Below are positions 18,289-21,896 of a DNA stretch of 64,000 nt, piece after piece. How positions within the stretch are numbered: position 1 is the stretch's first letter; each line of letters begins with the position of its first letter. Source of the DNA: Capnocytophaga sp. (GTDB taxonomy: Bacteria; Bacteroidota; Bacteroidia; Flavobacteriales; Flavobacteriaceae). Below the pieces are notes generated by a model, which did no database searches, was not told where the DNA came from, and saw only the letters and a program-made list of their open reading frames with translations. The DNA lies in NCBI GenBank assembly GCA_030530525.1, contig JAUMUT010000006.1:1-64000 (forward strand), in the 5' to 3' direction. The position numbers and the translations under genes are program-made.

Positions 18289-20412
18289 TTAAAAATAAGC
18301 AACTCCTATGGTGATATTCTTCCAAGTTGGAGTATTTTGGTATGTTGTTTTTATGGTATCGTCTTTTACAAATACGTTTATAGAATTAGTTGAAAAAGGA
18401 TTTCCTTTTAGGGTAGGAGGAGTTTCAGGCTCTAAATAAATAGAGGTTAATTGATGACAATCATTGAAAGCTCCAAAACCTATTTCTTTAACATTTTCAG
18501 GGATAATAACCGAGTGAATAGCAAAACAATTAGCAAAAGCCATACGACCAATTGTTGTTACAGAATCAGGAATATTTATACTTTCTAAGCGAATACAATT
18601 TGTAAAAGTGTTATCCTGAATTTTAGTAAGTCCATTTGGCAATTCAATAGATTTTAATCTTCTACAATTTTGAAAAGCTCCAATACCTATTTCTGTAACT
18701 TTATTGCCAATTATGATACTTGTGAGTTGTTGTGTATTAGTGTTTTCAGAAAAGGCATAAATACCAATTTTGATGATATTTTTTAGTACAGGGTCGGTAT
18801 TCATATTGAGGTGTTTGGTTGTGAGGTTTTTCCATCTTACCAATGTGGTTTTATCCGTAGATAATTCATAATCAATCCCTTCTTTAAATATAGTGGTATT
18901 GGTTAAAGAAATACCTTCGCCCCAGCCAGTATTTGTTTTTGGTCCAAAGAGAATTTTATCTTCTGTTTGGATATAGAAATCTCCTTCTTTACCGATGGCG
19001 TTGTCAGGATTGGTAGTTCCTGAATAGATTTTTGTTCCGCTTTCGCCAATTGCTTTATGTTCGCTTTTTACACCATCTAAGACCCAATATCCATCGGTAC
19101 TGATAGTTATTTTTGTGCCATCTTTTCCTTTTTGTCCATCGTTACCAATTGCTTTTACATTGATAACACTTCCGTTTATTTTCCAATATCCGTTTTCTAT
19201 TTCAATGGTAGGAGTATTTCCGTCGTTTCCTTTTTCACCTTGTGCTTTTTGGTTGGTATTTATGTCATTAATGTGCCAAAATCCGTTTTTTATTTCCAAT
19301 TTTGGAGTATTTCCGTCGTTACCAATAGCTTTTTTATCGGTTTTTTCTCCATTAATAACCCAAAATCCGTCTTCACTGATGGAAATCGTAGGTGTTGTGC
19401 CATTATTTCCGTCATTTCCTTTTTCACCTTGTGCTTTTTGACCAGTATTTACGTCGTTAATGAACCAAAATCCATTTTTTATTTCTAATTTAGGAGTATT
19501 TCCGTCGTTTCCTTGTGTTTTTTGAGATGTTTTTTCTCCATTAATAACCCAAAATCCGTCTTCACTGATGGAAATCGTAGGTGTTGTGCCATTATTTCCG
19601 TCATTTCCTTTTTCACCTTGTGCTTTTTGACCAGTATTTACGTCGTTAATGTACCAAAATCCATTTTTTATGGTAAAAGTAGGAACATTGGCATCTTTTC
19701 CGTCTTTCCCGATGGCTTTTTTATCGGTTTTTTCTCCGTTAATAATCCAAAACCCATCTTCACTGATGGAAATCGTAGGTGTTGTACCGTTATTTCCGTC
19801 GTTTCCTTGTGCTTTTTGAGATGTTTTTTCTCCATTAATAACCCAAAACCCGTCTTCACTGATGGAAATCGTAGGTGTTGTGCCATTATTTCCGTCATTT
19901 CCTTTTTCACCTTGTGCTTTTTGGTTGGTATTTACGTCATTAATGTACCAAAAACCGTCTTTTATTTCCAATTTTGGAGTATTTCCATCGTTTCCTACGG
20001 CTTTTTTATTTGTTTTTTCTCCGTTGATAACCCAAAATCCGTCTTCACTGATAGAAATAGTAGGCGCATCGAGTACAGCTTTTTGAGATGTTTTCTCTCC
20101 ATTAATGTACCAAAAACCGTCTTTTATTTCAATTTTAGGTGTATTTCCGTCTTTTCCGTCAGTTCCTTTAAGATTTACAATAGGATTTCCCCAATTTCCG
20201 TCCTTTTTAGGTCCATAGAGATTGTATGAAGACAAATCTATGAAAAAATCTCCGTCTTTACCAAAGTTTGCTGCTGGGGCATTGTTCCCAGAGAGAATCG
20301 TCTTAGCATCTTCCCCTTTGGTATAGATATATTCGGTTTCTGTCTTAGTACATTTTACGCTAATGAAAACAACCGAAAGAGCAATGCATAATGTGGAAAA
20401 AAATTTTCTCAT
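18289..20412 (-). CDS. Repeat surface lipoprotein with BspA-type leucine-rich C-terminal domain
   Basis: A signal peptide and lipid cysteine (C21) anchor this 707-residue protein in the outer membrane. After a spacer with DGDFFID and LYGPKKDGNWG come twelve modules (residues about 88-450) built on G(F/Y)W-x-I-N and ending near QKA or KKA. They are joined by collagen-like Gly-Xaa-Xaa links such as GEKGNDGNNGTTP. A second copy of the spacer module (GKEGDFYI, LFGPKTNTGWG) follows at about 463-497. Residues about 540-700 are five 23-residue LRR_5/BspA-type repeats (IGxxAFxNCxxLxSIxIP). BspA-type repeats in other oral bacteria bind host matrix proteins; adhesion here is inference. No type IX sorting domain is seen. 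Confidence 0.85.
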   Translation of the reverse strand: MRKFFSTLCIALSVVFISVKCTKTETEYIYTKGEDAKTILSGNNAPAANFGKDGDFFIDLSSYNLYGPKKDGNWGNPIVNLKGTDGKDGNTPKIEIKDGFWYINGEKTSQKAVLDAPTISISEDGFWVINGEKTNKKAVGNDGNTPKLEIKDGFWYINDVNTNQKAQGEKGNDGNNGTTPTISISEDGFWVINGEKTSQKAQGNDGNNGTTPTISISEDGFWIINGEKTDKKAIGKDGKDANVPTFTIKNGFWYINDVNTGQKAQGEKGNDGNNGTTPTISISEDGFWVINGEKTSQKTQGNDGNTPKLEIKNGFWFINDVNTGQKAQGEKGNDGNNGTTPTISISEDGFWVINGEKTDKKAIGNDGNTPKLEIKNGFWHINDINTNQKAQGEKGNDGNTPTIEIENGYWKINGSVINVKAIGNDGQKGKDGTKITISTDGYWVLDGVKSEHKAIGESGTKIYSGTTNPDNAIGKEGDFYIQTEDKILFGPKTNTGWGEGISLTNTTIFKEGIDYELSTDKTTLVRWKNLTTKHLNMNTDPVLKNIIKIGIYAFSENTNTQQLTSIIIGNKVTEIGIGAFQNCRRLKSIELPNGLTKIQDNTFTNCIRLESINIPDSVTTIGRMAFANCFAIHSVIIPENVKEIGFGAFNDCHQLTSIYLEPETPPTLKGNPFSTNSINVFVKDDTIKTTYQNTPTWKNITIGVAYF
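19060..20150. repeat. Near-identical tandem coding repeats inside the surface lipoprotein
   Basis: The twelve protein modules are encoded by highly similar DNA. Bases 19341-19462 and 19530-19651 are identical over 122 bases, 189 bases (63 codons) apart. A third near-identical copy starts around 19830. Unequal recombination could add or remove whole modules in frame. Confidence 0.9.
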
Positions 20413-20918: not shown

Positions 20919-21896
20919 TTAAAATTGAATATTAATTCCGTATATTTGTGTATCTTCCAAAATGGAAGTAGAAAAACGCAAATGGTATTTTTTTGGAGTT
21001 TCTACCACATTAGTTTTATGTTTGGTAATACGTGTATTTGCTATGTTTTTCCCGATGAGATAGCCCATAAAAATAGCGATAGGATAATCGGAAGCCCAAT
21101 GTACTTTGCTTTGCATCATCTCAAACCCGAGCAAGCCCAAGGCGGTATAACTAACGGGTTTTATCCATTTTTTTTCAGGATAATTTTCAATAAGAACAGT
21201 TACGGCAGCCATAGCAGTGGTAAGGTGTCCGGAAGGCATAGCGTCGTAATTGGAGGTGTGTTTTTGGTATGCCGAAAAGCTCGGAGCAAAATTCCAATGG
21301 CTGTGCCGTCTGCCGTCATTCATTGTAATAAATGGACTTTCTCGCCCAGTGAGGCGTTTTATAGGTTGTACAAAAAGCCCTGTAACGGCAATACTTTCTA
21401 AAACTTGCATCGCTGTGCTTTGCGCTCGGTAATCCTTAGTGATGAGTCCGTAAGTAGCTAATCCTCCGCTTATTAGGATAAAAGTAGTTCCGTTACCCAA
21501 AAGGTATAATCCTGAATTGAGGTCGGTAGGAATGTTTTCTAACGGGCCCAATTTTTGGTAACTATGATTAGGATTTAACCCTAAATTTTCTCCCAAATTT
21601 CTACTTTCATTAATCAACCAAGGATCGGCAGGCATTAGCGCACCCGTAGCAACAAGCGAAGCGATTCCGTAAGGATAATAAGGCTTTGCTACAAAATCCG
21701 AAGCGGTGTTAAGAAAGTTTCTCGGAATTTTATTTACCAAATGATAAATTTTAGGCTTTTTATAGCTAAAAGTTTCATTTTCAGATATTTGATAAAACTG
21801 AATGTCTTTATTTTCTGAGGAAAAATCTAAACTATCTATTTCTTGTGTTATTCCTAAAAAAGGGAATAAGGTAAAGAAAAAAAGGATTTTTTTCAT
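20919..21896 (-). CDS. PAP2-family phosphatase
   Basis: This exported or membrane phosphatase of 325 residues has a signal peptide ending near ITQ-E. The three PAP2 motifs are present: KRLTGRESPF (motif 1), MPSGHLTTAMA (motif 2, catalytic His) and SKVHWASDYPIA (motif 3, nucleophilic His and Asp). Relatives remove phosphate from phosphatidate, undecaprenyl pyrophosphate or lipid A; the substrate cannot be assigned. It is third in a minus-strand run of S4 protein, phosphoribosyltransferase and PAP2, with 15- and 22-base gaps. Confidence 0.88.
   Translation of the reverse strand: MKKILFFFTLFPFLGITQEIDSLDFSSENKDIQFYQISENETFSYKKPKIYHLVNKIPRNFLNTASDFVAKPYYPYGIASLVATGALMPADPWLINESRNLGENLGLNPNHSYQKLGPLENIPTDLNSGLYLLGNGTTFILISGGLATYGLITKDYRAQSTAMQVLESIAVTGLFVQPIKRLTGRESPFITMNDGRRHSHWNFAPSFSAYQKHTSNYDAMPSGHLTTAMAAVTVLIENYPEKKWIKPVSYTALGLLGFEMMQSKVHWASDYPIAIFMGYLIGKNIANTRITKHKTNVVETPKKYHLRFSTSILEDTQIYGINIQF

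Follow-up and report, generated by a model that had tools for sequence, protein, structure and literature searches.

The 64,000-nucleotide window of DNA analyzed here, from the mouth bacterium Capnocytophaga sp., contains a gene for a lipoprotein in which a repeat array is enclosed by two related small modules, here called bookends. The question it raises is what such a protein builds, and how the array came to lie between the bookends. The ORF (18289-20412, minus strand) starts with ATG and predicts a protein of 707 aa, at the coordinates given in an earlier note on this sequence. The order of elements proposed there, a lipid anchor, a bookend, an array of twelve modules, a second bookend and a leucine-rich LRR_5 domain, was borne out, with agreement among the lipobox with Cys21, the family HMM, the core counts and Pfam. 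The features are as follows.

18289-20412, minus strand: whole gene, 707-aa lipoprotein (ORF; starts 22 bp downstream of a same-strand globin gene)
20350-20412, minus strand: signal peptide and lipobox with Cys21 (VFISVK-C) (sequence; helix 2-17 in the AlphaFold model; Cys21-Thr-Lys invariant in 9 aligned proteins)
20305-20349, minus strand: tether after the lipidated Cys, TKTETEYIY..., with Lys at +3 and no K-(D/E)2 (compared with PMC5080379)
20161-20304, minus strand: bookend B1, residues 37-84, GDFFID..NLYGPK..GNWG (family HMM; fold model with pLDDT 92-97; fold match to collagen XV/XVIII trimerization domains)
19036-20160, minus strand: twelve G(F/Y)W modules, residues 85-459, with short Gly-X-Y links, resembling the C-terminal half of DUF4988 (Pfam; core count and shuffles)
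19215-19808, minus strand: 189-bp A+B module pair, 3.1 tandem copies, 86% (Tandem Repeats Finder)
18892-19035, minus strand: bookend B2, residues 460-507, GDFYIQ..ILFGPK..TGWG (family HMM; bookend tree)
18772-18891, minus strand: linker and LRR N-cap, DYELS.D.TTLVRWKN...LNMNTDP.L (kept in all orthologs)
18394-18771, minus strand: LRR_5 (BspA-type) domain of five rungs, residues 548-673 (PF13306, 104 bits; pLDDT ~90, five strands)
18292-18393, minus strand: C-terminal cap, residues 674-707 (AlphaFold model, helix 685-692)
20919-21896, minus strand: neighbouring PAP2-family gene (orthologs in three other Capnocytophaga genomes have it close by too)

LRR_5 (PF13306) matched residues 548-673 with a score of 104.3 bits against a Pfam cut-off of 27.7. 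In the full-length AlphaFold model, which is confident for this domain only (pLDDT ~90), five strands recur at a spacing of 23 residues (565, 588, 611, 634 and 657); the five repeats counted from the sequence are therefore confirmed. Matches of the model in the PDB were LRR proteins, for example 6mlx (TpLRR) and 4fs7. When it was compared with a viral structure library, LRR, collagen-like and tail-fibre proteins were found, the latter two with TM-scores too low to have meaning. The BspA-type proteins of Bacteroidetes likewise carry an LRR_5 domain on a lipoprotein, but in the present protein the domain has just five rungs and is placed on a bookended stalk.

The array contains twelve G[FY]W cores, at residues 99, 125, 153, 188, 220, 251, 286, 314, 349, 377, 408 and 441, whereas 2000 shuffles of the region averaged 0.09 and never exceeded 2. 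The earlier count of twelve is thus correct, but the modules are not the near-identical copies they were taken for. Their pairwise identity averages 52% (range 26-96%), and there are two classes, with the consensus ISISEDGFWVINGEKT for class A and LEIKxGFWYINDVNT for class B, plus two divergent copies. Identity is ~70-96% within a class (slightly lower for module 1) and ~33-52% between classes. The order is B A B A A B A B A B followed by the two divergent C-terminal copies, with the classes mostly alternating, and the unit of recent duplication is the 189-bp A+B pair listed above. Links of Gly-X-Y type do exist between the modules, as the earlier note had it, but they are short, with at most four triplets in a row, and Pfam Collagen (PF01391) was not called on this protein.

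The modules match DUF4988 (PF16378) with 87 bits against a cut-off of 30, in 8 stretches; across the genome, matches to this profile occur at 5 separate places, all of them within this gene. The region matched repeatedly is positions 57-142 of the 183 in the profile. Positions 1-56 are unmatched and the best stretches begin at 57-68, so that the match is a partial, C-terminal one. The protein thus shares the C-terminal part of the profile with DUF4988 proteins many times over, but it lacks the N-terminal third and has the remainder tandemly repeated between bookends. A literature search for the role of DUF4988 gave nothing beyond a listing in an expression table, and the module profile had no match among PDB sequences at E up to 1. 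Structure prediction, which the earlier note had suggested for one module and for the whole protein, was informative for the parts: the LRR domain, the bookend and the modules fold confidently, and each module is predicted as three short strands (mean pLDDT roughly 78-88) in a model of B1 plus three modules built with a better alignment. The relative orientation of the modules is, however, not fixed in these single-chain models (pTM 0.36 for the full-length protein, 0.43 for B1 plus three modules).

An HMM search found the module gene in 11 of 20 Capnocytophaga genomes, once in each, although in 2 of the 11 (G001 and G002) it is split between contigs. The twelve modules seen here are the highest number, compared with 2 to 8 elsewhere. 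In two draft genomes (L049/L050 and L051/L052) the gene is broken at contig ends inside modules, as expected of repeat collapse. Module numbers from short-read assemblies, perhaps including the present one, may be minimum values.

The bookend motif DGDFxI...(Y/F)GPK is found at about residues 37-84 and 460-507, and the family HMM detects both. The second was originally described as a second copy of the first. Two bookends do flank the array, but they are only ~40% identical, and B2 is therefore not a fresh copy of B1. In this genome the bookend HMM found 12 bookends in six proteins, exactly two in each, and the five other proteins carry the pair without a module array. The present protein has the lipobox, the exactly two bookends and the LRR_5 domain that characterize the Capnocytophaga bookend-pair family. 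Across the genus, the count covered 49 ORFs with bookends from 15 Capnocytophaga genomes: 42 contain exactly two and the other 7 a single one, and the number never exceeds two. Four of these 7 represent just two proteins, each divided by contig ends, in G001 and G002. The distance between bookend starts ranges from 117 to 1263 bp, the maximum being that of the present gene.

A tree of 39 bookends separated all 19 B1 from all 20 B2 sequences with a single change, whether or not an array was present; label shuffles needed ~13 changes, so that the separation is far from chance. The alignment has few columns and the deep branch itself is modestly supported (SH-aLRT 91, bootstrap only 38). On the same tree, presence of the array requires 6 changes. 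Since the two bookends separate regardless of the array, they appear to be an old pair into which the array was inserted later, and on the evidence of the tree the pair predates the modules. The recent duplication of one bookend around an array, which was considered as an alternative origin, is ruled out by the age and distinctness of B1 and B2. The presence of bookends on both sides of the array had been called unexpected. We do not share this view, because the pair is what stays constant across the family and is older than the array, which is the newcomer.

What lies between the bookends is variable. Among 32 two-bookend ORFs compared, the insert ranges from 10 to 382 aa and is of one of three kinds: a spacer of 10-14 aa, pure Gly-X-Y, or Gly-X-Y together with modules. 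Four of the five paralogs in the present genome have inserts of 10-14 aa, and the remaining one, at 39 aa, includes 11 Gly-X-Y triplets. Other Capnocytophaga paralogs (L033, L080 to L084) carry perfect Gly-X-Y runs, 19 to 73 triplets long, and pure Gly-X-Y inserts contain 73 triplets in L080, 66 in L081, 45 in L082, 34 in L033 and 27 in L084. In the orthologs, 2 to 8 modules are interleaved with Gly-X-Y, the longest run being 6 to 15 triplets, and Pfam Collagen scores above its cut-off in two of them (L040 and L043) and in the paralog L038. The present protein is the extreme case, with the longest insert and the most modules; Gly-X-Y accounts for 75 of its 382 insert residues and, with runs of no more than four triplets, a continuous triple helix is impossible in it.

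A second tree was built from B1, B2 and the start of the LRR region, without the insert. In it, all nine proteins that bear modules group together (97/93 support), and the simplest history is one addition of modules to a lineage that already had the bookend pair; by this tree the modules have a single origin. Insert type changed at least 5 times on the tree, from which it follows that the rod was remodelled repeatedly. The family thus offers a natural series, from no rod through a pure collagen rod and a mixed rod to an almost pure beta-module rod, and a curiosity of repeats becomes a testable family of stalks with fixed ends and a variable insert. A different arrangement is found in a 1219-aa lipoprotein of the same genome (L036:7834-11493, plus strand). 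It has LRR_5-type repeats at both ends and many 'PxxISLKVGETxxVxIxGNGDYEI' beta-module repeats in the middle, and its gene adjoins two bookend-pair genes; it is another stalk-like solution.

The nature of the bookend itself was approached through its predicted fold, which is confident (pLDDT 92-97 in the model of B1 plus three modules). A Foldseek search with the 135-residue model gave no match at E under 0.001. When Foldseek candidates were re-aligned, the top three among solved structures were 3n3f (collagen XV; Z 5.0, 50 of 54 residues, rmsd 3.2), 3hon (4.8) and 9bnc (4.5; collagen XVIII), and the phage protein Mtd came next, with its N-terminal part (Z 2.8). The predicted bookend fold resembles that of the collagen XV/XVIII trimerization domain over 50-52 of 54-57 residues, with Z-scores of 5.0-4.5 that are middling for a domain of ~55 residues. 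The two domains are alike in size (~55 aa), in a nearly full-length predicted fold and in standing at the end of a collagenous region, but the collagen domain is an animal one, and the bookend shares only 6-12% identity with it and has no sequence signal. In a direct comparison with the collagen XVIII domain, hhalign gave a probability of 0.1 and 2450 of 5000 shuffles scored as high. The bookend had no match in Pfam, and its profile had none among PDB sequences at E up to 1 and only chance-level matches at 10. A motif that was also found in collagen XVIII (1% of shuffles) had been devised after the fold match was seen and is not counted as evidence. The resemblance is no less likely to reflect convergence than descent. 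The middling fold match gains weight only from its setting, since in this family the domain is found at both ends of collagen, and in phage tail-fibre proteins it lies next to Gly-X-Y.

Taken together, these results point to a homotrimeric outer-membrane lipoprotein that would act as a stalk presenting LRR_5 heads, with trimerization-type bookends at both ends of its rod; we give this reading a probability of about 60%. Cys21 would be lipidated and anchor the protein to the outer membrane, while B1 and B2, as small trimerization-type domains, would register and cap the two rod ends. The family rod would be a collagen-like triple helix, which in the module-bearing clade may have been partly or mostly replaced by three-stranded beta modules of the DUF4988 C-half. 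Three chains would associate in parallel, with the LRR_5 heads at the far end offering a binding surface. Rod length would be the evolvable part, since segments between the bookends could be gained, lost or exchanged, the latest growth of the present array probably having occurred by tandem duplication of the 189-bp A+B pair. The earlier note had already suggested a rod that holds the LRR domain away from the cell. A single-chain AlphaFold model shows no rod by itself (pTM 0.36), but the suggestion is supported by the sister proteins, in which the same bookends enclose uninterrupted (Gly-X-Y)n collagen, a rod by nature. The layout of an N-terminal anchor region, a stalk of variable length and a C-terminal head is shared with bacterial collagen-like adhesins such as Legionella Lcl, which has a collagen-like stalk of variable length and a C-terminal head, is a trimer by MALS and appears lollipop-shaped by electron microscopy (PMC11162425). 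The bookend family differs from Lcl in its anchor, a lipid instead of an N-terminal helix, in the two bookends at the stalk ends and in its LRR_5 head, which takes the place of DUF1566; in the present protein, collagen is also mostly replaced by beta modules. The best-supported account is that the protein would work as such adhesins do, and it may offer a testable case of bacterial stalks being adjusted in length and composition.

The same domains could instead form a monomeric string of beads, in which bookends and modules are independent single-chain beta domains, the Gly-X-Y links are flexible charged spacers and collagen ancestry has been lost in this protein. Both kinds of domain do fold confidently as single chains, and the short triplet runs, the small Gly-X-Y share of the insert and the uncalled Pfam Collagen model are what such a protein would show. 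However, long collagen, for which three chains are needed, lies between the same bookends in sister proteins; orthologs place the same modules beside long collagen runs; and the best fold match of the bookend is a trimerization domain. On this balance we consider a monomer rather unlikely. Location is a separate matter, because a lipoprotein facing the periplasm could serve as a spacer or LRR scaffold within the envelope and not as a surface adhesin. A 73-triplet collagen rod measures ~63 nm by the usual collagen rise, and sister rods of this length would be too long for the periplasm unless lying flat. The minimal surface-export signal of C. canimorsus lipoproteins is K-(D/E)2, best as C-X-K-(D/E)2-X, and in tests with SiaC, KD alone, with one acidic residue after the Lys, was insufficient for surface display (PMC5080379). 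The present protein, with CTKTETE from the lipobox Cys onward, lacks the minimal signal, and C-X-K-(D/E)2 is found in just 1 of 34 bookend family members, as would be expected of periplasm-facing proteins. On the other hand, Lys at +3 is invariant in all 34 bookend lipoproteins, this one included; it is present at this position in 72% of the surface lipoproteins of C. canimorsus, whose periplasm-facing lipoproteins show no highly conserved residue (PMC5080379). Either a weaker export signal works or the 34 proteins are not surface displayed, and the family could serve to probe how strictly the signal is required. The earlier note called the protein a surface lipoprotein; judged from the tether sequence, surface display is plausible, and we see only a small chance of a periplasmic orientation.

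Bookends also occur in phage tail-fibre and minor tail proteins, and the array with its bookends might accordingly be tail-fibre debris fused to a lipoprotein and devoid of any stalk function. Conservation speaks against this, and we regard it as highly improbable: 11 of 20 genomes retain the architecture, each with a single module gene, the frames are open throughout and B1 and B2 are conserved. The gene neighbourhood is also partly kept. The PAP2-family gene lies two genes upstream of the stalk gene and close upstream of the orthologs L041, L046 and L051 as well, which makes these orthologs by position too. Between the two genes lies a bacterial-type globin gene (PF01152; 20435-20821, minus strand), which ends just before the stalk-gene start codon; nothing lies between in L041, and a different gene does so in L046. 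In public genomes, relatives were found in C. sputigena, C. periodontitidis, C. leadbetteri, C. gingivalis, C. bilenii and two further oral Capnocytophaga taxa.

If the bookend is a trimerization domain, an unnamed module common to phage tail fibres and bacteria of the mouth would gain a function, and the C-terminal part of DUF4988 a role. Tentatively, the bookend may be a general prokaryotic and phage trimerization domain, absent from Pfam and with a collagen XV/XVIII-type fold, that caps interchangeable collagen and beta-module rods without breaking the trimer, so that the length and stiffness of stalks could evolve by segment swapping; we think this possible but less likely than not. Protein gp176 of Burkholderia phage FLC6 has the bookend (a YGPK..W module) twice with Gly-X-Y between, as in the Capnocytophaga family, but it is a virion part that has neither lipobox nor LRR. 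A protein of ~1000 aa (L096), from a genome of the same family (G035), contains around ten tandem bookends with pieces of Gly-X-Y and has a C-terminal part that resembles a phage tail-fibre or collar protein; here the bookend is free-standing outside Capnocytophaga. A database entry labelled 'Bacteriophage sp.' (L063, MT837658.1) is unannotated and encodes an MFS-type transporter, two OmpA-like outer-membrane proteins and a lipoprotein with DUF4988-like modules; it has the look of a bacterial contig rather than a phage.
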